Assembly: GCF_000819805.1 (NCBI RefSeq)
Contig: NZ_CDCE01000034.1
Span: 838-64,837 of the forward strand
DNA from: Aeromonas diversa CDC 2478-85
GTDB taxonomy: Bacteria > Pseudomonadota > Gammaproteobacteria > Enterobacterales > Aeromonadaceae
DNA: 64,000 bases
Reading direction: 5' to 3'
The translations under genes were made by a program, and so were the position numbers. The number at the start of each line of letters is the position of its first letter. The stretch's first letter is position 1. The notes beneath the pieces are model-generated. The model did not search any database and was not told the DNA's origin. It saw nothing but the letters and a program-made list of their open reading frames with translations. Below are positions 1,927-12,982 of the stretch, piece by piece.

Positions 1927-2983
1927 GGCGTTGTTGATCAAATCCGTCGCTGGATGGCCGTTCCCCAACCCATTGATACCACTCAATTCACTGGCTGGCG
2001 AACAGGCATACCAAGCCCTATCAGCTTGTTCATCACCTTCACGCCAGCCAGGATTTCGCCCACCTGGGCGTTGTAGTTCCGCAGGCTCAGCTTTGGCCCG
2101 ATGAGTTGCTTGAACCGGTACATGGCGGTCTCGGCTATCGAGCGCTGGTGATAGCCGGCGTCTTTCTTCCATTGCTCCAGTTCATCGGCCTTGAGCGCCG
2201 TCACCGCTTCGTTGCGGGGATGCCCCTCCTCCCACAGCGCCGCGTTTTTTCTCTGCGGTATGATGGCTTTCGCCCCCTTCTTCTTCAGTAGCGCATGACA
2301 GGCCTTGGTGTCATACGCGCCATCGGCGCTGACCTGTTTTATCTTGCGTTGTAAGGGGTTGAGCAACGTCGGTAACACCTCGTTATCCGCCACCGTCTCC
2401 AGGCTGACTTCGGCAGCGATGACCGCATGGGTTGTGGCATCCACCGCCAAGTGGAGCTTGCGCCACACTCGTCGCTTCTCCTTGCCGTGTTTGCGAATTT
2501 TCCATTCGCCTTCGCCTTCGCCATAGACCTTGAGGCCGGTGGCATCAATGACCAAGTGAGCTACCGGGCCTTGGCTGGGGAGGCGGTACTTGATGTCGAC
2601 GGTCTTGGCGCGCTTGCTGATACAGCTATAGTCCGGCGACTGCAAAGGCACCGCCATCAGTTGGAACAACGAGTTAATGAAGCCTTCTAGCGCCCGCAGC
2701 GGCAACTTGAACAAGCCTTTTAGCATCAGGGCCGTCTCAATGGCGGTGTCACTGTAGTGGAAACCTCTCCCTCGGCGGCCATGGTGGACCAGGCAATGCC
2801 ACTGCTTAATGGCTTGTTCGTCCATCCAGATGGTCAACGAACCGTGTTGCACCAGGGCTTGGTTGTACTGTTGCCAGTTGCTGGTCTTGTGCTTGGACTT
2901 GCCCATCAGATGCTCTCGGAGACTGCGCTACAGGATCAGATCACCGAGATGACAGATAGTTCCCCGATTTGAGCAACAAGGCC
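1927..2983 (-). mobile_element. IS903-group IS5-family insertion sequence, copy 2 (intact)
   Basis: A 1057-bp element with the same terminal inverted repeats as copy 1 and a perfect 9-bp target duplication, CCCGTGAGT. It encodes one full-length transposase on the minus strand. It lies 77 bp before the start codon of the cassette at 3061, so it has probably separated that operon from its original upstream region. Joining the flanks across one copy of the duplication restores the presumed pre-insertion sequence. Confidence 0.95.
1983..2906 (-). CDS. IS903-group IS5-family transposase
   Basis: A full-length 307-aa DDE transposase that cuts and joins the ends of its own element. Visible catalytic features are the first Asp in VIDATGLK (D121), the second in SADGAYD (D195) and the Y-(2)-R-(3)-E signature YHQRSIAE (Y252, R255, E259), as expected for IS5/IS1182-type enzymes. 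Relative to copy 1 it carries one extra Gly-Glu pair (YGEGEGEWK rather than YGEGEWK) from a 6-bp tandem expansion. Start ATG at 2906, with the gene filling nearly the whole element. It is probably functional, since all three catalytic motifs and both ends are present. Confidence 0.95.
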   Translation of the reverse strand: MGKSKHKTSNWQQYNQALVQHGSLTIWMDEQAIKQWHCLVHHGRRGRGFHYSDTAIETALMLKGLFKLPLRALEGFINSLFQLMAVPLQSPDYSCISKRAKTVDIKYRLPSQGPVAHLVIDATGLKVYGEGEGEWKIRKHGKEKRRVWRKLHLAVDATTHAVIAAEVSLETVADNEVLPTLLNPLQRKIKQVSADGAYDTKACHALLKKKGAKAIIPQRKNAALWEEGHPRNEAVTALKADELEQWKKDAGYHQRSIAETAMYRFKQLIGPKLSLRNYNAQVGEILAGVKVMNKLIGLGMPVRQPVN

Positions 2984-2992
2984 CCCGTGAGT
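2984..2992. repeat. 9-bp target-site duplication, right copy (IS copy 2)
   Basis: CCCGTGAGT directly after the right inverted repeat; identical to 1918-1926. Confidence 0.92.
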
Positions 2993-3060
2993 ACTAAATC
3001 GATTGGGAGATGTCTGCGATTTCGGTAGGATTATAAGTGAATTTGTGAGGACAAAACCCA

Positions 3061-4791
3061 ATGAGTAGATCAATGGCTAATGAGGGGATACAGGTAGATG
3101 CGACGGAATTGGCAACGCAGCTCCGTACTCGCGGCTTGGTGCGTACTATTGTGGATCTGGAGTGTTGGCATCTGAATGGTAACGCCTCCGAGTTGATTGA
3201 GACGATCGCACATATATTAAATACCACAGACGCGCCGCCGATTGTTTTTTATATCGAAGACGCGCTTGAGGAGTTGGATAGATCGCGACTTTTCCTTGTC
3301 GAGAATGTTCTATGCGATTTGATTCCCCTTCTGAACGTAGAACAGGACATCATTCACCTATTCATCATGCATTTGCTTGATGCCGGTTGTGATGGCGCAC
3401 TGATTGCCTCGTTTGGGGAGTGGACGAAAAAAGACTCAAAGCGGTCTGAAAAAGTCTATAAGTCAGCACGTAATGGTGATAACCTCGCGCTGCGTCTGTT
3501 ATCCACGGTGCTCCTGATAAATTCTGATGTGGATGAAAGCATCATTTTCGCGAAGGCTCATAAGCAGGAGGCAAAGCTCGCGGCTATATCGGCTTTGGGG
3601 TCTATGGAGCTAGGAGATCGCTACTCTGAGGTGATCGACATCCTGTTCCAGTGTGCGTCTAGCGAGGATGAGGACATCTGCCTTCGATCAATAGAAGCCG
3701 GCTATCGTGCTGCTGCAAAGCGAAAAGCATATGCACCAGTTGGTTTCGAAAAGCGGCTCGAACAAATCCTTTTTACACTTAGCCCATCTACTATTCACTT
3801 TGCGGTAAACCTCTTGACGCGTCACCGAGAGAGCCTCACAGAAGATGCCATTGTTCTGTGTCTTGGCGCTGCGGCCCACGTTGATCCAGATAACGCCAGC
3901 ACACTCTCTCTCATCGACCATGCCTTATACCAACTCGTGAGCGTTGGGCGTACTGAACAGGTGATTCCTTTACTTAGTGAATTGATCGATCGTTCAAAAG
4001 GACGCATTACGTTTGATTCGCTTCAGAGTACATATCATGCGCTTAATCAAGCAGGCTATGATGTGCTTGGTAGTGCAGTGGTGTACTGGTTGCTTAATGC
4101 AGGAGCATACACTCGCAAATGTTTGGCGTACAAAGTGTGCGGGGTTGGGAACGATGTACCATCTTTCTCTATACCCTCGTCGTCACTGCCATCAGACCCA
4201 TCGGATCAGCTATTCCTTTGTCGTAAGGCTATTGGTTGGTTCTTCATTGATCCTCTAGCTGTGGTTACCATATTGTTAGCGGTGCTTCGCAATGGATCTC
4301 CGGACATCAAAAATGATGTCCTCGAGCTTATCTATGATCCCTTACTACTGAGCTATGGCGGCAAGTTGAAGAGTTATCTTGAGCAGTGTGTCGTCGAAGG
4401 GGGGGGAAACAGCTCAGGCCTTGCCGAATTGCTCGCACGCAAGACTGCGCTTGATGACGCGCTGGAAGGCATTGAACGTTTGGTTGAACTACACCCCAAC
4501 GAAATGCAGCGTGAAGTGGAGCGAGTTCAATGGCACGAACAGATGGAGCGTAGTATCCCGCAGGGGCGTCGGAAATCAATATTTGATGATATTTTCACCA
4601 ATCAATACATCCTTTACGGACGCTCGTCGTTGACCTCGGTCCATACCGGTGAGGGCAAAACTAATCTCACTGAGATAGAGATGACATCATTTTCCATTAC
4701 GTCTGAGTTGCCCCTGCTCAATATTGTTGACCCAATTGGCCTTGACCACATGCTTTTTAATTTCAGACTGGAGCAACGGGAATCTCGATGA
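3061..4791 (+). CDS. Helical-repeat protein, first gene of putative defence cassette
   Basis: A 576-aa protein of no family I can name. It looks almost wholly alpha-helical. From about residue 60 to 460 it shows repeating amphipathic helix pairs with Leu/Ile/Val/Ala periodicity, as in HEAT- or TPR-like solenoids. There is no signal peptide, Walker motif or nuclease motif. Start ATG at 3061 has GAGGA about 9 nt upstream; a second ATG at 3073 is possible. Its stop overlaps the next start (ATGA at 4788-4791), which implies translational coupling with the nuclease-like gene. A solenoid beside a nuclease and an ATPase suggests a scaffold or recognition subunit, but that role is inferred only from context. 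Codon use is AT-richer than the core genome downstream. Confidence 0.8.
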   Translation: MSRSMANEGIQVDATELATQLRTRGLVRTIVDLECWHLNGNASELIETIAHILNTTDAPPIVFYIEDALEELDRSRLFLVENVLCDLIPLLNVEQDIIHLFIMHLLDAGCDGALIASFGEWTKKDSKRSEKVYKSARNGDNLALRLLSTVLLINSDVDESIIFAKAHKQEAKLAAISALGSMELGDRYSEVIDILFQCASSEDEDICLRSIEAGYRAAAKRKAYAPVGFEKRLEQILFTLSPSTIHFAVNLLTRHRESLTEDAIVLCLGAAAHVDPDNASTLSLIDHALYQLVSVGRTEQVIPLLSELIDRSKGRITFDSLQSTYHALNQAGYDVLGSAVVYWLLNAGAYTRKCLAYKVCGVGNDVPSFSIPSSSLPSDPSDQLFLCRKAIGWFFIDPLAVVTILLAVLRNGSPDIKNDVLELIYDPLLLSYGGKLKSYLEQCVVEGGGNSSGLAELLARKTALDDALEGIERLVELHPNEMQREVERVQWHEQMERSIPQGRRKSIFDDIFTNQYILYGRSSLTSVHTGEGKTNLTEIEMTSFSITSELPLLNIVDPIGLDHMLFNFRLEQRESR

Positions 4792-6494
4792 AACTTGTCG
4801 TGTTGCACTATTTGCGCTCGCTTCGGGAACGTGACGAACTCGACGCCATTTTGCCCGATCTCTTGGCTGAGAGTGGGTTCGAAGTTCTCACCCGCCCCCG
4901 CCGTGGTACGCGGCAAGCCGGAGTTGATGTCGCTGCTGTGGGTCCCAATCGTGACAGTGGCGGTGATCGCAGCCTGTTTCTGTTTACAATCAAGTCCGGC
5001 GATCTGACACGAGAGCATTGGGATACTGGCCAACAAGCCGTGCGTCCATCGCTTAACGAGATATTGGATGATTACATCCCGAATCGTATCCCGCCCCATT
5101 TAGCGAGTCTGCCGGTCGTTATATGTGTTTGCATGGGGGGAGAAATGCGCGAAGACGTTCGCGCTCAGTGGAGCGGTTTTTGCCGGAAGAACGAGACAGT
5201 TAACATTCATTTCGCCGAGTGGAACGGAGATCGCCTTGCAGATCTGATTCTCAGCGGTATGTTACGCGCGGAATTAATTGAGAGCGAGAACCGGGGACTG
5301 TTTCAGAAGGCGCTAGCGATGCTTGATCAGCCTGATGTCGCCTATCGGTATTTCTCCCACTTGCTCAATGCAATCTTCACTAAGCCGAAGGACCAGGCAG
5401 AGTGCACACGCCAACTGCGAAAGGCCTATCTGTGTCTTTGGATACTCTTTGTATGGGCTCGCGATGCCGATAACCTTGAGGCTGCGTATCGAGCATCTGA
5501 ACTAGTGTTGTTGCGCAGCTGGCCACACTGCGATAGCACTCATCTGCGCAAGGGGCAGACGCAACAGGAGCGACTGGTTCATTTTGATCAGGTCGTGCAG
5601 CTTCATATCATCATCGCTCGCCTTCTTCTCGTCGATAAGATAGGGCTGTTCGCTGATAAGCGTTTTGCGCTTTCAATGGCCGTCAATTCACGCAATGCGG
5701 TTGACATCAATCTCACACTATTTGAGATGCTGGGGAGGTTGTCTCTTCATGGACTATGGTTGGATGTCCTCAGTGTCGGGCAGGACGAAGCATTTGCGAG
5801 AGCGATGCATGAAGAGGCGGATAAAGTACTCAATATAACGATCGGAATGATAAATGCGAACCCTACGCTTGCCACCCCTGTTCGTGATGATTTCGCGATC
5901 GAACTAGCTCTATTTATGCGTCTCGCAGATGTGCGCGGCCGTCTTTCTAATGTCGCTAACTATATCCGTGGCATGTCAGATCTTCTGTGCAACGGGCTGA
6001 TGAGTCGGCAGCACTATCCAACACCTATGACAGATTATCGAGATGTTATTTCCCATCCCAGAGAGCGTAGCGACACATATTTTGAAGAGAATACAAGAGC
6101 TGGGATTCTATACACCTTTGTGCTCGCTTGGCTTGTGATGATCGGAGATAAGGAACGTGCAGAGCAGTTACGCAGCACGTTGCTGGAACACGCCCCACAT
6201 ATGACACACCAGACCTGGGTTCCTGACGGTCAAACAGATAAGATTTTCTGGGATGGTAATCGAGAACATGGCCTGTCAGTGCCAGGTTTACCGCTCGATA
6301 AGTCTATCGAAGCCGTCTTTGAGCTCATCAATCGGGTAATGAAGGCTCACCCATTACATGAGCGAGTAAGCGCAGTGAAAATGGGTTTGACCCCTATATT
6401 CCTTATGGCATGCCGTCATTATCGCATGCCTGTGCCACCACATATTTGGCGAGACCATAAGCGTGATGCTCCTAACAGTATCGCTACAGATTAA
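4788..6494 (+). CDS. PD-(D/E)XK-like nuclease with long helical C-terminus
   Basis: A 568-aa protein. The first 110 residues resemble the Mrr-like restriction endonuclease fold: a helix with E28, then RQAGVDV carrying D47, then a strand ending FTIKSGD with K69. In the classical motif the residue two before the Lys is Asp, Glu or Gln; here it is Thr (TIK, 67-69), so activity is not certain. From about residue 165 to the end the protein appears helical with no motif I know. It overlaps the preceding gene by 4 nt and is followed by a 114-nt gap before the ATPase gene. It would be the DNA-cutting effector, or a DNA-binding relative, of the cassette. The fold assignment is by eye. Confidence 0.75.
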   Translation: MKLVVLHYLRSLRERDELDAILPDLLAESGFEVLTRPRRGTRQAGVDVAAVGPNRDSGGDRSLFLFTIKSGDLTREHWDTGQQAVRPSLNEILDDYIPNRIPPHLASLPVVICVCMGGEMREDVRAQWSGFCRKNETVNIHFAEWNGDRLADLILSGMLRAELIESENRGLFQKALAMLDQPDVAYRYFSHLLNAIFTKPKDQAECTRQLRKAYLCLWILFVWARDADNLEAAYRASELVLLRSWPHCDSTHLRKGQTQQERLVHFDQVVQLHIIIARLLLVDKIGLFADKRFALSMAVNSRNAVDINLTLFEMLGRLSLHGLWLDVLSVGQDEAFARAMHEEADKVLNITIGMINANPTLATPVRDDFAIELALFMRLADVRGRLSNVANYIRGMSDLLCNGLMSRQHYPTPMTDYRDVISHPRERSDTYFEENTRAGILYTFVLAWLVMIGDKERAEQLRSTLLEHAPHMTHQTWVPDGQTDKIFWDGNREHGLSVPGLPLDKSIEAVFELINRVMKAHPLHERVSAVKMGLTPIFLMACRHYRMPVPPHIWRDHKRDAPNSIATD

Positions 6495-6608
6495 ACTATA
6501 TCAGCTTCTGGAAGCTTGCTAATCGAATGAGCGTGTAAATCGTGAGGCTGTAGTTTTCAGGAAAGGGCCAGTTTTATTAGGTCAGAGCTACGGGAGTTTG
6601 CTTGGATA

Positions 6609-8948
6609 ATGGAAAATATAGACGAACGCGATATAGATGCTGCGCGCTTTGAGAGGCAGATTTTAGATATCTGGCGAGGAGAGCCTAATCAGACGCCTGA
6701 GGGGGGACTCAAGCTTGCCATATTTCTGCTATTTACTGAGCAGAACTCAAAACACATAGTGCTTCCTTGGTCATGGGCCGATACAGAGACGATTTATGGC
6801 TTGATAGATGCCAAGCGTCGTGCTGACGACTGGTTAAGACTCAAGGACTCTGATGTAACAGAGCGTGAATGGGCACGTCAGTCACCATATGTGCTGGAAA
6901 AGCTACGTCATCTTGTTAGCTATAGCGGTAACTCTACGGCAAACTTGCATCGATTGGATTTTCTTGTCAAAAGTTTGTGCGCCAGGGGATTTTCAAACAA
7001 CTGGGCTCGGAAAGTCGAAAGCTTCGTCGCCGATTTTGCACATGGCTGGTCCGTTAGCGGTCGAGCAGTCGTTGACATGAACACGATGACGACAGGTGAG
7101 CTAGGGGTTCGTCTAAAAGACGTTCAGGCCGGTGACGATTACGTATTGCCGGCTGAGCTTCAGCCCCATCTTTTCGAGGTCTGTCTTCGTCTTCATGCTC
7201 ATGACGTGCAATTCCAGTTATTAGCAGAACAGAGGGCAGACAGTTCTTGGCGCGGCGTGGGGGCAGCCTACAAATTTGCTTGGCCGAGTCGCTATCGTTC
7301 GGAGTGGACAAATGAGGTGCGTCCCTTTGAGCTCAACGGTCTTGAGTTCGCTCAATGGTTCCTTGACCATGGACATGGCCAACGTATCACGATTGTAGTC
7401 CTTCCCACAGCTGATTTACGAGGCAAAGGTCGGGGGACCGAGATTCGGCATTATCTGCTACAGCGTAGGTGTGTTCTAGGTGTAGTAGAGATACCTGCTC
7501 GAGTGTCTGGGCGTACACGACTTTCGATGCTGATAATGGCGAAGGAGCGGTCCAGTAACGATGAATCAGTCCTGCTGATGAACGGTCGCGCGGTAGATGG
7601 ATTACGGGATGAGCCTCTGGATCGCTTGGCTAGATTTCTCTGTGCCCCATTCCTAGACGCAATGAAGGGGGATACATTGCGTAGGTTGCCTTATGAGGCC
7701 GACCTGGGTGATGCGCTATTAAATCGTGCTCGGAAGATGTTCGGGGCGAAGTTACACGAGGTGCCTGGATTTTTTCGCTATGTGCAGTTAGAAGAAATTC
7801 TGGACAACCAGAACGCGGTTCTCGATCCATCTCAGTGGATTTCCGAGCGTGATCCTATGGTCGCTAGCGATCTGCTGGATGGTTCCCCTGTTTACAAGCT
7901 GTTGGAGGAACGAGAGCGACCCTGCTGCGTTTACGTCATCGGAAACAACGGAGCGGGAAAAAGCATGCTCTTACGTCAGCTTGCTAAGGCATATGTGACG
8001 TCTGGGCGGCCTGTGCGTGCTATCGCTTCTGCAACCAGTGACAGATTCGAGGCCAAAATGGGGGCAACAGCCGACTACGTTTACCTAGGATCGCGCACTA
8101 GTAATATGTCCACACAGCCGCGAAGGCTTGGACGTAAGTTAGCCGAGTTGATGGTTGCTATCCATGCCGACCGCGACAAGATCGCCGCGGTAAGCAGAGT
8201 TCTCGAACAACTGTCTTTTGCGGGTCAACATTATCTATTGCCGGAGTCCGCTACCTCCGATGTCCTGGAGTCTGTGCGTGAACTTGGTGTCGATGAGGCT
8301 CCAAGTAACATGAATGGGTGGAAGCTCGGCTTTCGAAAAAACCATGAGAATTCGATAGTTCCCTTTGATCATCTTAGTACCGGCGAACAGCAGCTACTGC
8401 TTCTGACGGCAAGGCTTGTTGAATACGCCCGGCCCGGTGTTGTCTTCCTGATCGATGAGCCCGAAACTAGCTTGCATGTCGCTTGGCAGCGAGCACTGCC
8501 ATCGGTTTTTCAGACTATCAGCCGAGACTTCAATTGTCAGATGGTTATCGCTACGCACTCACCGATTCTAATTTCTACCTCGCGTGGGGACGACACATAC
8601 CGATTTATGGCTGATGGTGGTGTGCTAGAAGTAATTGGGGAGCAAGCTGCAAGTAGTGTCGAACGAGTGCTTTTTCAGGGGTTCGATACCTACACAGGCA
8701 ACAACCGAGAGGTTCACGAACGCTGTGCTGAGTTGGTTTCGCGGGCTATCGAGTTTGCCAACACGGAGCAAACTGAAATGTTGCAGAGCGTCTTTGATGA
8801 ATTGCAACAGATGGAGGAGAAGGTTACTAGAGCTGTCCCTGCGCTTGGCTCCGAGGTACCTGCGCGGCACCTTGATCTCATTCGAAGAGCTACTCTCGCG
8901 ATAGAGGAACTGACTAGCTCCGATAAGTCTGAGGAGGCCAGATCGTGA
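6609..8948 (+). CDS. Methyltransferase-like domain fused to PtuA-like ABC ATPase
   Basis: A 779-aa two-part protein. The C-terminal half is an ABC/RecF/OLD-type ATPase: Walker A GNNGAGKS (445-452), signature LSTGEQQ (589-595), Walker B FLIDEPETSLH (D616, E617) and switch THSP (H650), as in PtuA of Septu. The N-terminal half (about 1-400) is not an ATPase. Around residues 240-315 it has the order IVVLP, EIRHYLLQR, GVVEIPA, RLSMLIMAKE, which matches the tail of the HsdM/N6-adenine methyltransferase domain of Type I restriction. I see no SAM-binding motif I and no NPPY/F motif IV, so it would be a pseudo-methyltransferase. The stop overlaps the HNH gene (GTGA). Start ATG 6609; CGGGAG lies somewhat far upstream. 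Confidence 0.88.
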   Translation: MENIDERDIDAARFERQILDIWRGEPNQTPEGGLKLAIFLLFTEQNSKHIVLPWSWADTETIYGLIDAKRRADDWLRLKDSDVTEREWARQSPYVLEKLRHLVSYSGNSTANLHRLDFLVKSLCARGFSNNWARKVESFVADFAHGWSVSGRAVVDMNTMTTGELGVRLKDVQAGDDYVLPAELQPHLFEVCLRLHAHDVQFQLLAEQRADSSWRGVGAAYKFAWPSRYRSEWTNEVRPFELNGLEFAQWFLDHGHGQRITIVVLPTADLRGKGRGTEIRHYLLQRRCVLGVVEIPARVSGRTRLSMLIMAKERSSNDESVLLMNGRAVDGLRDEPLDRLARFLCAPFLDAMKGDTLRRLPYEADLGDALLNRARKMFGAKLHEVPGFFRYVQLEEILDNQNAVLDPSQWISERDPMVASDLLDGSPVYKLLEERERPCCVYVIGNNGAGKSMLLRQLAKAYVTSGRPVRAIASATSDRFEAKMGATADYVYLGSRTSNMSTQPRRLGRKLAELMVAIHADRDKIAAVSRVLEQLSFAGQHYLLPESATSDVLESVRELGVDEAPSNMNGWKLGFRKNHENSIVPFDHLSTGEQQLLLLTARLVEYARPGVVFLIDEPETSLHVAWQRALPSVFQTISRDFNCQMVIATHSPILISTSRGDDTYRFMADGGVLEVIGEQAASSVERVLFQGFDTYTGNNREVHERCAELVSRAIEFANTEQTEMLQSVFDELQQMEEKVTRAVPALGSEVPARHLDLIRRATLAIEELTSSDKSEEARS

Positions 8949-9670
8949 ATCAACTAGTGACCGCAGAGAAAGATTTCGGGAAGAACGTATTGACCTCGGT
9001 CGAGGCTAGAGCTTTCTATCGTGAATGGCGAAAACTTGCATCAAGCAGAGCCAACCCCTGGTCTGCCATACGTGCTGCTACATTTACGGTGGAGGGCCAA
9101 AAAGATGGTTCAGGTATGAAGATCATATCAGCACTTCGATCCCACCTTGCTGCTCTGCAAGCTGAACGCTGTTGTTACTGTCGACGTCGCCTTGTTGGGA
9201 TTGCTTATGCGCGGCCCATTGAGCATATCCTGCCCAAGAACACCTACGGGCAGTACACCTTTACATACCGTAATCTTGCAGTAGCATGCTTCGACTGTAA
9301 TCTTGTCAAGAGCAAAGCCAATTGGTCAACTTGGCCACAAAATCGTAGGCGGTACATCAATGAAAAGAGCTGCAACGGTTTTTTTCATGCTCGCCTCCAT
9401 GATTATGACTCCCATGTCAGATATTTTCATTTGGAGACGAATGGTGCATCAATCAGCGTCTACGTTGGCTTGACTCCCCAGGGACGGCATCTTTGTGTTG
9501 AGCTACTGAGCAAATCCTCGGAGAGAACCCTCGCGGAAAGTGCCAACCCAAGGTTTTCTGCCGCAATGGACAAACTTCGTGGCCAAGTTCAGCAGATGGC
9601 AGCGACAACTGACGACACCAGGTTGTTGGACTTCATGGAAGCGTTGGAACTTGCTGTTGACCCGCTGTAA
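8945..9670 (+). CDS. PtuB-like HNH endonuclease
   Basis: A 241-aa HNH nuclease. A CCYC cluster (C76, C77, C79) and CFDCN (C115, C118, N119) can hold the structural zinc; IEHILPK (H94) and the following NLAVACFDCN give the beta-beta-alpha-metal core. The spacing is that of PtuB and of the HNH proteins paired with PtuA-like ATPases in Septu and some retrons. It starts at GTG 8945 inside the stop of the ATPase gene, so the two are translationally coupled as in ptuAB. Most likely it is the nuclease effector activated or restrained by the ATPase complex. No transmembrane or secretion signal. Confidence 0.88.
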   Translation: MNQLVTAEKDFGKNVLTSVEARAFYREWRKLASSRANPWSAIRAATFTVEGQKDGSGMKIISALRSHLAALQAERCCYCRRRLVGIAYARPIEHILPKNTYGQYTFTYRNLAVACFDCNLVKSKANWSTWPQNRRRYINEKSCNGFFHARLHDYDSHVRYFHLETNGASISVYVGLTPQGRHLCVELLSKSSERTLAESANPRFSAAMDKLRGQVQQMAATTDDTRLLDFMEALELAVDPL

Positions 9671-9987
9671 TGGAGTAACAGTCTAGTAGGGGCGACATTA
9701 AGGCAACTTATTTTGGGGCATAGTGTCAGGGAAAGACGGTACTCCACCTGATCCCGCACTTGGACTTTCTATGCGAGATCTCGCCCTAGCGAAACCGGTC
9801 GTTATTAAGCTGCAGCTTGTACTATTACGAAAGCAACTCTGCGAGTATACATCCATTCTGGATATGGTGTTCTTTATGGTATTGAAAAGTTGTCACCAAT
9901 TAAGTTGTTGTAATATAATGATTTTTTGTTTTAATTGATAATTGAGTGGGAATAAGCGGCCGCGTCCCGAGCGCAGCCAAAAGTGTT
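9671..9987. other. Gene-poor stretch after the cassette
   Basis: I see no convincing gene in these 317 bases. An open frame at 9723-9938 has a Cys/Phe-rich tail with no recognisable family and no good ribosome-binding site. The AT-rich stretch near 9880-9945 could hold a promoter, but no downstream gene supports that. Confidence 0.4.
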
Positions 9988-10020
9988 AAAAAGACGCCCT
10001 TGTGGCGTCTTTTCATTTTT
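9988..10020. terminator. Rho-independent terminator
   Basis: Stem AAAGACGCC / GGCGTCTTT with a short loop, followed by TTTTCATTTTT. It is 318 bp after the HNH gene and could end the cassette transcript. It is nearly identical to the terminator at 10968-10994. Confidence 0.8.
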
Positions 10021-10620
10021 CAATCGTTTGCGAAAAAATTGGGTATCTGGTCGGGGTGAAGTGTACGGCCCTCGCAAGGGATGTCGCACCGATGTGAGAG
10101 CGGGCGTGCATAGTTGGCAAGACCCGCTCTTTATCTATTTCGCCTGGGCTCATATTCCCCTGCACCTTCACTTTCTTTTGTCGCTCTCGCTCACCAAACC
10201 GTCGGCGTGTAGCGGCGTGCCTTTGGCCCACGCCATCCACTGCTGTGGCTAAAACCCGCTTAACGTCTTCTTGTCTCGCGAGATCTATTGCTACCTCGCC
10301 TCGGAGGATCAGAGAGAGGGATACCTCTGCCCATTGGGGGAGTGATAGGGCCGAGGGCGACATCCGGTAGGTAACCCCTGTCATTTATGACAGGCGGTGT
10401 TTTCGGGAGCCTGCTCTACGCTCTTTGGTGCCGATTGAGGTCGGTGCCGAGAGGGGCTGTTATGGCAGAGGGAGTGCAAGCCCTTGCATGAATTAGATCT
10501 CGCTTGCACATCGTCATACCGCCGAGTCTTCGGCATCTCTCAGGTGGAGTCCAGCAACCACCTAAATCAACGGGGCGGAACCCGAACAGCCATATGAGTA
10601 GGGATTAGTCATCACGGAGG
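10021..10620. other. 600-bp region without recognised gene
   Basis: Six hundred bases with no gene I can support. A minus-strand frame at 10013-10384 has no family features and overlaps the terminator. Several short inverted repeats occur, e.g. AGGTGG/CCACCT near 10540-10563. A structured leader RNA for the cystatin-like gene is conceivable, but I match it to no known riboswitch. Confidence 0.35.
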
Positions 10621-10627
10621 GTTTGTT

Positions 10628-10900
10628 ATGTCGGATCAAGCTGTGCTGGTTGGCGGATGGACTGCATATCACAGGCTGACTGCGGAAGACCAAGCGGTGT
10701 TTCAGGAAGCGCTGAAAGGATTTGTTGGGGTGGAGTATAAGCCCTTTGAAGTTTCCACCCAGGTGGTAGCGGGTATGAACTACCGCTACAAGTGCAAGAC
10801 CACGGTACCCTTGCCGACTCCGATCCATGGCGAAGCCGTGGTACAGATCTTCCAGTCGCTGGACGGCTCTGCCCATATCACCTCCATCACTCCCATCTAA
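10628..10900 (+). CDS. Small cystatin-like protein
   Basis: A 90-aa protein with the cystatin signature QVVAGMNYRYK at about residues 47-57 (the Q-x-V-x-G protease-binding loop) and an N-terminal GGW that resembles the conserved cystatin Gly. Cystatins inhibit papain-like cysteine proteases by a tight wedge. There is no signal peptide, so this form would be cytoplasmic. Start ATG 10628 has GGAGG about 7 nt upstream. It stands alone between two similar terminators. The family assignment is by motif and length; a target protease is not apparent in the window. Confidence 0.75.
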   Translation: MSDQAVLVGGWTAYHRLTAEDQAVFQEALKGFVGVEYKPFEVSTQVVAGMNYRYKCKTTVPLPTPIHGEAVVQIFQSLDGSAHITSITPI

Positions 10901-10967
10901 TTGCGTGTAGTGATGGGGTAGGGGAGAAGAGCCAACATCAAGCTCTTCCTCCTCAATTCCAGCAATG

Positions 10968-10994
10968 AAAAAGACGCCCCTGCGGCGTCTTTTT
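10968..10994 (+). terminator. Rho-independent terminator after the cystatin-like gene
   Basis: Stem AAAAAGACGCC / GGCGTCTTTTT with a CCTGC loop, 68 bp after the stop codon at 10900. Almost the same sequence as the terminator at 9988-10020. Confidence 0.85.
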
Positions 10995-11273
10995 ATATCT
11001 GTAATGAGGGTCGTGGCCACGACCAGCCACGTCATCCACACGCCCGGTTCGCTCGTTTCCTCCGACTGAACTTTGGCTGTCCGGTACAGACCGATGCACC
11101 TTTTGGCTAGGTCATTCATCGTATCGGCTGAAGTCCACATCGATCATACCTGTTCACGCACTGAAGCCAGGTTCTCAGCCTGCCAAATCCGGGAGCACAA
11201 TATCCTGCCCGGCGGCGGATATGATGGGCAGGGGCTCAGGAAAGGTGAACGCTAAATGTGGTCATCACAGGAA
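10995..11273. other. Intergenic stretch without recognised gene
   Basis: Nothing gene-like is supported between the two terminators. Open frames here are short and lack ribosome-binding sites. Confidence 0.4.
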
Positions 11274-11303
11274 TAGAAAACGGCGTTTTTTGGCCGTTTT
11301 CTA
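11274..11303 (-). terminator. Rho-independent terminator of the lipoprotein gene
   Basis: A perfect 10-bp stem TAGAAAACGG / CCGTTTTCTA with a T-rich loop, 22 bp beyond the 3' end of the minus-strand lipoprotein gene. AT-rich on both sides, so it may work in both directions. Confidence 0.75.
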
Positions 11304-11325
11304 TTAGGTCCCACACATACAACAG

Positions 11326-11910
11326 CTACGACCCAGGTTGTGAAGGCTGTGAACCTGGTTGTGATTGGTCAGCCTCATAGCTTTTCATATTCTTGATCGT
11401 CTCCATAAACGCTTGGTCGACTCGGGCCGGAGCCATCGCGCATCTGGAGGCCAAGTTAATGGCGTTTATGACGGATGGGTTAGTATTAAAATCGGTCTGC
11501 CCCGCTTCCAGTTCTCTCTGAATTTGGGCCCGTCTGGCCATGACAAGGGCATAGTCAAAAGACTGATCATAAGATATCTGCAAGGCGTTAGTCGCACCTG
11601 CAAAGCCTGCCCATGCCGTAGCCGCAGTGCCTGTGGCGATTGGCGCAAAGACGGCACCAGCTAATGTACCTAAGGCAGCCAAACCAAACTTGGCCGCTTT
11701 GCCTGAGCTACCGCCAGCAGCGTAAAACTGCTGAAGTTTAACGCAGTATGCGGTGGCTTTTAGATACTCGACGTGAGCATCAGAACCTACTTTGTTATCA
11801 GGCCATGGCCAGTCGATAGAGGTAGACTCTGCCACCCTGTCAGGGATAGCCGAACAACCTGCAAGGGCTCCCATACAGGTCGCCAGAATGAGAGAGGGAA
11901 ATTTTTCCAT
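11326..11910 (-). CDS. Putative lipoprotein, unknown function
   Basis: A 194-aa product starting MEKFPSLILATCMGALAGC: a short hydrophobic signal peptide ending in an LAGC lipobox with Cys19 as the lipidated residue. The middle carries a Gly/Ala-rich hydrophobic stretch (FGLAALGTLAGAVFAPIATG) that may be a membrane hairpin. The C-terminus is a Gln/Ser/Pro-rich tail with the repeat QPGSQPSQPGS. I chose the ATG at 11910 because GGAG lies about 9 nt upstream; an in-frame ATG 15 nt earlier lacks a site. No family recognised. It is a single gene with its own terminator. Confidence 0.75.
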   Translation of the reverse strand: MEKFPSLILATCMGALAGCSAIPDRVAESTSIDWPWPDNKVGSDAHVEYLKATAYCVKLQQFYAAGGSSGKAAKFGLAALGTLAGAVFAPIATGTAATAWAGFAGATNALQISYDQSFDYALVMARRAQIQRELEAGQTDFNTNPSVINAINLASRCAMAPARVDQAFMETIKNMKSYEADQSQPGSQPSQPGS

Positions 11911-12097
11911 GATTGCATTCTCCATTTATATATGGGGACTGCAGAGCCGCGAGAGCTCACCACCATGATTGCTTCCTGTGCACACGTAAAGTGTAGTGCT
12001 TTAACTCTAATTTCGAGTCGACGGAATGTGACATGAAGCACAGAACTGCCAGTGAGATCGACGTTTTCGTCAAAAGTCTGAAAGAGGAGGCGTAACG

Positions 12098-12406
12098 GTG
12101 AGGAAAGTAGGGGCGATTCAGGCAGCAGCAGATACCCTCGTCTATATTGTTCTCCCCTACTCGGTTAGCTACTGGTTCGTGACTAAGCACTTTTTGAAAG
12201 GACTATTTATAAAGCCAGAAGGTCGGCCTGATGGGAGTTCAATATTAAACGTCACGCTACACAGCGATAGAACACTCAAATTATGCCCGACATGCTGGAA
12301 CGATGAGTTCTCATCTCAGTTAATGGGATGCTCGAGTAGTAAAAAAGTCTACATGCTAAAAACAGTGTATGAATGGAATGATTTTTCTCTGGTGAAAACT
12401 AGGTAA
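12098..12406 (+). CDS. Hypothetical 102-aa protein
   Basis: Starts at GTG 12098 behind a strong AAGAGGAGG site. The first 40 residues are hydrophobic and aromatic (LVYIVLPYSVSYWFVTK) and could be membrane-associated. The C-terminal half contains CPTCW, then a Cys and a Ser-rich turn. No family recognised. A 20-codon frame (ATG 12033 to TAA 12095) ends inside its ribosome-binding region and may be a leader peptide or the tail of a lost gene. Confidence 0.5.
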   Translation: MRKVGAIQAAADTLVYIVLPYSVSYWFVTKHFLKGLFIKPEGRPDGSSILNVTLHSDRTLKLCPTCWNDEFSSQLMGCSSSKKVYMLKTVYEWNDFSLVKTR

Positions 12407-12544
12407 CACGCATATTATAAGATGTTCAAGTTAGGTTGATTTCACATGAGGCTTTATCACTCTGTGTTTTTGTGGTGAAGGTGTCTTTAGGTAAGTTGGT
12501 TTAGATGGCCACCCCCTCAGCGCAGCGTTACAAACCAAGGAGAT

Positions 12545-12982
12545 GTGGTGGTTACATTCAGGGAAATGGAGATTGCCGATTACAACGACGTGATGGCCTT
12601 GTGGGCTGCCACTGAAAACTTATCGTTACGAGATGCCGACTCTCGCCAAAGCATTGATGCTTATTTGAAAAGAAATCACGGTTTAAGTTTCGTCGCAGTT
12701 TCCAACGCTGTTGTGATCGGCGCTGTCTTGGTTGGTACAGACGGTAGGCGAGGATATGTACAGCACTTGGCTGTCTCATCCGATTTTCGAGGTCAAGGGA
12801 TTGGTCAGTCTTTAATTAAAAAGGCGACAGATGCTTTGTCTGGGGTTGGTATTTCCAAGACGCATTTGTTTGTATTGATCGAGAATGTAGCTGCGCAGGA
12901 TTTTTATACCAAGCTGGATTGGTATCCTAGAGATGAAATTCGTATGTTTTCATACAACAGTTCGTGCAATCCAGAAGTATAG
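12545..12982 (+). CDS. GNAT-family N-acetyltransferase
   Basis: A 145-aa acetyl-CoA-dependent acetyltransferase. VQHLAVSSDFRGQGIGQSLI is the motif A/P-loop (R/Q-x-x-G-x-G/A) that grips the CoA pyrophosphate, and the C-terminal VLIENVAAQDFYTKLDW is the usual motif B with the Asn-Phe-Tyr packing. Length and domain order match small RimI-like GNAT proteins. Start GTG 12545, preceded by AAGGAG. The substrate cannot be told from the sequence. It sits at the right edge of the accessory region, 117 bp before the PhzF gene. Confidence 0.88.
   Translation: MVVTFREMEIADYNDVMALWAATENLSLRDADSRQSIDAYLKRNHGLSFVAVSNAVVIGAVLVGTDGRRGYVQHLAVSSDFRGQGIGQSLIKKATDALSGVGISKTHLFVLIENVAAQDFYTKLDWYPRDEIRMFSYNSSCNPEV

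Follow-up and report, generated by a model that had tools for sequence, protein, structure and literature searches.

The four-gene locus and its surroundings

Four consecutive ORFs, all of them on the plus strand, occupy positions 3061-9670 of the window, i.e., of the whole 64-kb stretch of DNA that was analyzed, which belongs to a host assembly of 4.06 Mb in 37 contigs. They run from 3061 to 4791 (gene 1, 576 aa), from 4788 to 6494 (gene 2, 568 aa), from 6609 to 8948 (gene 3, 779 aa) and from 8945 to 9670 (gene 4, 241 aa). Genes 1 and 2 overlap by 4 nt (ATGA, 4788-4791), as do genes 3 and 4 (GTGA, 8945-8948), and genes 2 and 3 are separated by a gap of 114 nt; the ORF list and the sequence thus confirmed the layout described in an earlier reading made from the sequence alone. 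Neither a plus-strand promoter-like site nor a terminator-like site was detected in this gap, with a scan that overall finds no more sites than are found in shuffled sequences. Given the common strand, the short gap and the lack of such sites within it, a shared transcript is possible, and a single transcript with functional cooperation of the four genes in this strain is a possibility.

The GC content of the four genes is 0.48-0.51 and their GC3 0.49-0.51, compared with 0.59-0.63 and 0.80-0.82, respectively, in four core genes of the window. The sequence-only reading had called this DNA AT-rich, which holds relative to the core genes of the window, but not as an absolute value. A transposase ORF on the minus strand (1983-2906), with DDE domains (PF13737 and PF01609), adjoins the four-gene segment, and a shorter ORF related to it is found at 874-1473. 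Since the GC3 is far under that of the core genes and this transposase ORF lies alongside, a foreign origin of the four genes is a fair reading; these observations, together with the profile matches described below, agree with the earlier proposal of defense genes in foreign-looking DNA beside insertion sequences. The region 508-2990 was seen to consist of two related IS5-type elements, the ORF of one being shortened to 199 aa (874-1473) and that of the other having 307 aa (1983-2906), and its DNA matches 598 plasmid records. On the other side of the locus, a DUF805 RNA (Rfam RF03081) was detected at 10539-10609 on the plus strand (63.4 bits, gathering score 51.1), directly upstream of a 90-aa ORF (10628-10900) that has no Pfam match; of the 37 Aeromonas genomes that were searched, many contain DNA overlapping this RNA stretch. 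The same side of the locus has two 29-nt copies (90% alike) of a palindrome that resembles a terminator and is flanked by A and T; they lie at 9988-10016 and 10968-10996 and enclose about 950 nt. The DNA around the 9988-10016 copy gave short matches in many Aeromonas genomes.

Family assignment of the two gene pairs

Gene 1 matched the PADLOC OloA profile (E 1.3e-93, positions 19-595 of 596) and gene 2 the OloB profile (E 2.2e-194, positions 1-553 of 556), and these were the sole PADLOC families matched by each of them. Because both matches are near full length, genes 1 and 2 are, as judged from their profiles, the already named Olokun system. The original description of Olokun is reportedly that of Millman et al. 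(2022). The assignment of oloA (3061-4791) was accompanied by an alignment with eight relatives, and from the alignment with the Rhizobium OloA the true start of this gene may be the ATG at 3073. Its description as a helical-repeat protein found weak backing in a HEAT_2 match of 18.1 bits, which lies below the cut-off of 27.7. PMC10121019 credits the description of Olokun to its reference 7.

Residues E14, E17, D19, D47 and K69 of OloB (4788-6494) are invariant in the 20 aligned OloB proteins, the one of the window included. In a structure model of OloB built with 11 sequences (pLDDT 82.5), the N-terminus is mixed alpha-beta, and from about residue 147 onward the chain is helical. When this model was compared with the PDB (Foldseek), nothing matched at E 0.001 or better; the 50 listed rows were mostly helical-repeat and 14-3-3 proteins and included no nuclease. 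The sequence-only reading of gene 2 as a PD-(D/E)XK-like protein with a long helical tail is made plausible by the invariant D47 and K69, the alpha-beta N-terminus and the helical tail, but finds no backing in the listed fold matches, so that its nuclease fold is a prediction.

OloB is 82% and 81% identical to proteins encoded on Rhizobium plasmids, and OloA 64-65% identical to its counterparts there; OloA has changed faster than OloB. On these plasmids oloA is found directly before oloB, also with a 4-nt overlap, and with neighbors other than those in the window. The two Rhizobium proteins (loci L019 and L020) were closer to the OloB of the window than any other OloB found. The comparison of the Aeromonas genes with those of the Rhizobium plasmids suggests a transfer of oloAB across classes. 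The dN/dS of oloAB against the Rhizobium genes (0.06-0.18) is a rough value, since dS is above 1.

The second pair showed the features of PtuA and PtuB. The C-terminal half of gene 3 matched PADLOC PtuA profiles (best E 1.3e-36, best stretch residues 579-729), only positions 193-342 of the 375 of the best profile being covered, and gene 4 matched PADLOC PtuB profiles (best E 4e-23) and PF01844 (24.5 bits, cut-off 21.4). The PtuA-like ATPase part of gene 3 (residues 424-779; 7878-8948, plus strand) carries a Walker A motif at residues 445-452, LSTGE at 589, a Walker B motif at 612-618 and ATHS at 648. The PtuB-like protein (8945-9670, plus strand, 241 aa, GTG start) carries HNH/zinc-type residues, i.e., CCYC at 76, IEHILP at 92 and NLAVACFDCN at 110, and PtuB entries were present among the 10 weak matches that it gave in a sequence search of the PDB (best E 0.0032). 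The earlier recognition of a PtuAB-like pair is thus borne out by the profile matches and the motifs. The NCBIfam cut-offs were missed, with 37.6 of 500 bits for PtuA, 31.6 of 150 for PtuB and 37.5 of 52.15 for TIGR02646. The NCBIfam PtuA and PtuB are retron Ec78 equivalogs, and because these models are built round retron effectors, the low scores weaken a close kinship rather than the Septu type. By arrangement and residues, genes 3 and 4 are Septu-like, and they are not a close member.

The whole gene 3 gave matches in 8 of the 398 genomes of the phylum, its own included (E 1e-10, mostly two candidates scored per genome), and those in the seven other genomes were confined to residues 570-754. 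The PADLOC PtuA model PDLC00273 (E 1e-15) was matched in 2 of the 369 genomes of the class, again with its own among them. No match to the DNA of genes 3 and 4 was obtained in E. coli genomes, and no PtuB-like protein was matched in viral contigs.

Gene 3 had been described as a two-part ATPase; the two parts are real, but the front one had been left unidentified. In two plasmid PtuA-type relatives with their ORFs listed, the P-loop is found within about the first 70 residues, and the Walker A motif of gene 3 starts at residue 445. PtuA-like ATPases with other front extensions exist, as judged from the sequence of locus L014. There, a PtuA-like ORF of 699 aa (25-2124), which matches a PADLOC PtuA profile of 726 positions, has its ATPase part from about residue 280 and a front without Pfam match, and is followed by an overlapping ORF of 259 aa (2096-2875), by eye a probable HNH protein. 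Since other PtuA-like proteins also have extensions, the large front domain of gene 3 is to be taken as a variation, and not as an exclusion from Septu. On plasmid pBPHY02 of Paraburkholderia phymatum (locus L065, 1-5543), the genes of an S8 family peptidase and an ATP-binding protein, possibly a neighboring defense pair, stand immediately before PtuA- and PtuB-like ORFs.

Separate occurrence of the two pairs

We compared loci that contain relatives of OloB or of PtuB. The OloB loci (n=21) comprised 10 of the 34 matching plasmid records (H1, H2, H4-H9, H11 and H13), four chromosomal loci (G043, G053, G844 and G603) and seven loci on viral contigs, two of which (L079 and L081) cannot be told apart by the coordinates and scores of their matches and may represent a single lineage. 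The plasmid records left out were H3, which equals H2 in length and in the position of its match, H10, H12, and H14-H34, which match 48% of OloB. An OloA match was present in all 21 loci, although partial in some, and in none of the 21 was there a match to PtuA (either part of gene 3, N or C) or to PtuB (tblastn, E 1e-3). At L028, an IS3 element is inserted in oloB. No match to OloB was found in phages. The PtuB loci (n=9) were the A. taiwanensis locus and 8 of the 21 matching plasmid records, and none of these nine had a match to OloA or OloB. A match to the ATPase part lies directly upstream of PtuB in the eight plasmid loci, with a match to the N-part in none of them. As the stretches compared span 8.1 to 19.7 kb, partners farther off would escape detection, and so would relatives too remote to reach the E limit of 1e-3. 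Within these bounds the two pairs were apart in 30 of 30 other loci (21 for OloB and 9 for PtuB), and the co-occurrence of the four genes was not observed in any of them.

The edges of the DNA shared with A. taiwanensis LMG 24683 (NZ_CDDD01000054.1) point in the same direction. In that genome the second pair is present without oloAB, at another site. When the window was compared by blastn with 12.6 kb around the A. taiwanensis pair, the shared unit (6475-9735) was the only match, and hence the pair is at different sites in the two genomes. Homology starts at 6475, 20 nt before the end of oloB, so that the shared DNA of the ptu unit also encodes the last residues of the window OloB; at this end the OloB proteins of both Rhizobium plasmids are 12-13 residues longer. 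Homology extends to about 9735, the identity being 93.8% in 9671-9735 and 38.5% in 9736-9800, and the A. taiwanensis contig ends 278 bases past the pair.

These results bear directly on how the locus is understood. The sequence-only reading had favored one operon in which ptuAB-like genes are extended by a nuclease and a scaffold, a proposal that is not supported, as two of the findings that it had itself named as contrary were obtained: the pairs were apart in all 30 other loci, and genes 1 and 2 match Olokun. Its own alternative, two adjacent two-gene systems, gains from the same separate occurrence. A new four-gene system, in which OloAB and the PtuAB-like pair cooperate with two nucleases, a helical scaffold and a common ATPase, would be in keeping with the single strand, the 114-nt gap without promoter-like or terminator-like sites, the two overlaps and the similar base composition. 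It is nevertheless very unlikely, since the combination was seen in 0 of 21 OloB and 0 of 9 PtuB loci, A. taiwanensis has the second pair by itself, and the join falls within the end of oloB; the counts and this join led us to set it aside. Among the matches listed from open-licence papers, as far as their accessible portions go, none describes a joint Septu-Olokun system.

Another reading takes the second pair as a retron effector, with the reverse transcriptase and the RNA of that retron lost or located elsewhere, given that PtuAB serve as retron effectors in other cases (PMC8565338 and PMC13096335). However, no reverse transcriptase family was present among the matches listed for the four genes, the DNA common to A. 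taiwanensis contains genes 3 and 4 only, and in 2900-12700 the DUF805 RNA was the only match at the Rfam gathering score, although Rfam need not cover all retrons. With neither a reverse transcriptase match nor a retron RNA at that score, a retron origin was set aside as extremely improbable. The four genes are probably two independent two-gene anti-phage systems placed side by side in foreign-looking DNA, an Olokun system and a variant of Septu.

The front part of gene 3 and the proposed working of the locus

About 420 residues stand before the ATPase part of gene 3 (residues 1-423; 6609-7877, plus strand). PF02384 (N6_Mtase) matched residues 237-412 with 27.0 bits (cut-off 20.4), and only the rear half of the profile (positions 155-304 of 311) was covered; in the A. 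taiwanensis copy the score was 13.7 bits, under the cut-off. In a profile-profile comparison (hhalign), the extension matched 10 HsdM-type proteins weakly (E 5.8e-4, probability 29%, residues 256-415), and the control, nine OloA proteins, gave E 0.26 and 0.2%. A model made from these 10 HsdM-type proteins scored 10.5 bits on the N-part of the window, compared with 3.7 for the best of 2,000 shuffles, and 1.1 bits on the A. taiwanensis N-part, which is at the level of shuffles. A pattern search of gene 3 revealed no NPP(Y/F/W) and no glycine-rich SAM motif, and NPP(Y/F) was found in the longest ORF of 15 of the 16 N6_Mtase loci examined. The AlphaFold2 model of gene 3, built with two sequences, reached a pLDDT of 34.6, and a PDB sequence search with residues 1-423 returned nothing at E 1. 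The front part is probably a decayed HsdM-like domain.

This extension was found in two genomes only, of those searched. Relatives of the N-part were detected in 2 of the 75 genomes of the family, its own included, in 1 of the 369 of the class, which is its own, and at E 0.01 in 4 of the 398 of the phylum, i.e., its own and three with short, weak matches; at one of these four loci (L061), the ORF that covers the match resembles a nucleotide cyclase on visual inspection. Plasmids, phages and viral contigs yielded no relative. Among genome contigs, a search with two short peptide patterns, which has a small reach, gave the A. taiwanensis locus alone. No PtuA-methyltransferase fusion and no degenerate methyltransferase defense system was found among open-licence papers, and such a variant could still be published; as to Septu with HsdM, no such fusion appeared among the matches listed from the accessible portions of these papers.

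The two halves of the shared unit have diverged to a different extent. Between the window and A. taiwanensis, the DNA of 6609-7780 is 86.9% identical, and that of 7781-9670 is 99.5% identical, with 9 differences in 1,890 bases. In gene 3, the synonymous divergence falls from 0.283 over residues 1-390 to 0.029 over residues 391-779, and there are 86.5 nonsynonymous changes in the former and 0 in the latter, with 389 codons each. This drop points to recombination near 7780, not far from where the extension gives way to the ATPase, and the sequences of this one genome pair suggest a modular exchange of the front part. The extension could be a passive leftover of a gene fusion, without a role, in which case the pair would work as a plain Septu; its weak conservation, its presence in only two of the genomes searched, and the PtuA-type ATPases that manage without it near other PtuB relatives are consistent with such a leftover. 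The dN/dS of 0.37 over residues 1-390 and the frame that is open in both species point instead to some constraint, and we regard a passive extension as unlikely. Going further, the second pair would represent a Septu type not described before: an HsdM-like domain, catalytically dead and fused in front of PtuA, would sense DNA or DNA modification, and such sensors would be exchanged or diversify while the ATPase-HNH effector remains fixed. The difference in identity between the two halves would suggest such an exchange or diversification, and we hold the proposal as a whole to be rather doubtful.

We infer every biochemical step of the following scheme; gene content, family matches, ATPase and HNH residues, separate occurrence, junctions and differing divergence are as observed above. 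DNA is the target of other Septu systems, and to our knowledge the way in which Septu senses infection is not settled. By analogy with these systems, the PtuA-like ATPase would assemble with the PtuB-like HNH nuclease, and upon infection it would release the nuclease, which would then cut phage DNA or host tRNA so that phage growth stops. The front part, whose probable source is a subunit of a type I DNA methyltransferase and which would no longer be catalytic, may act as a sensor or binding module ahead of the conserved ATPase-nuclease effector, as its position and its greater divergence would suggest. In the neighboring Olokun system, OloB would act as a nuclease of the PD-(D/E)XK type borne on a helical scaffold; its partner OloA, also helical, would sense the infection or control OloB. 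The claimed new four-gene system thus falls away, and a known system and a rare variant of Septu remain. Provided that the assignment of this domain is right, the additional front part, which may come from a DNA-reading family, would provide a handle on what Septu-type ATPases sense.

When compared with known systems, gene 3 shows a weak resemblance to HsdM, in that residues 237-412 match the rear half of N6_Mtase, but it lacks NPP[YFW] and is fused to an ATPase, and no HsdS or HsdR is found among the four genes. Retrons of type I-A, or Septu type II, have an effector pair of the same kind, whereas here neither a reverse transcriptase match in the four genes nor a retron RNA at gathering score was found. 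In ptuXYZ a PtuA-like ATPase is also used, in another operon, but there it is accompanied by a DUF262 protein and a PIN-YoeB protein, and PtuX is said not to resemble PtuB (PMC11980606). With Septu type I the second pair has in common an ABC/SMC-type ATPase gene followed by an overlapping HNH gene, and it differs in the roughly 420 extra N-terminal residues of gene 3 and in scores under the NCBIfam cut-offs. The first pair departs from Olokun in nothing notable other than an OloB C-terminus 12-13 residues shorter than in the Rhizobium proteins, and it has both components near full length, encoded by adjacent genes with a 4-nt overlap.
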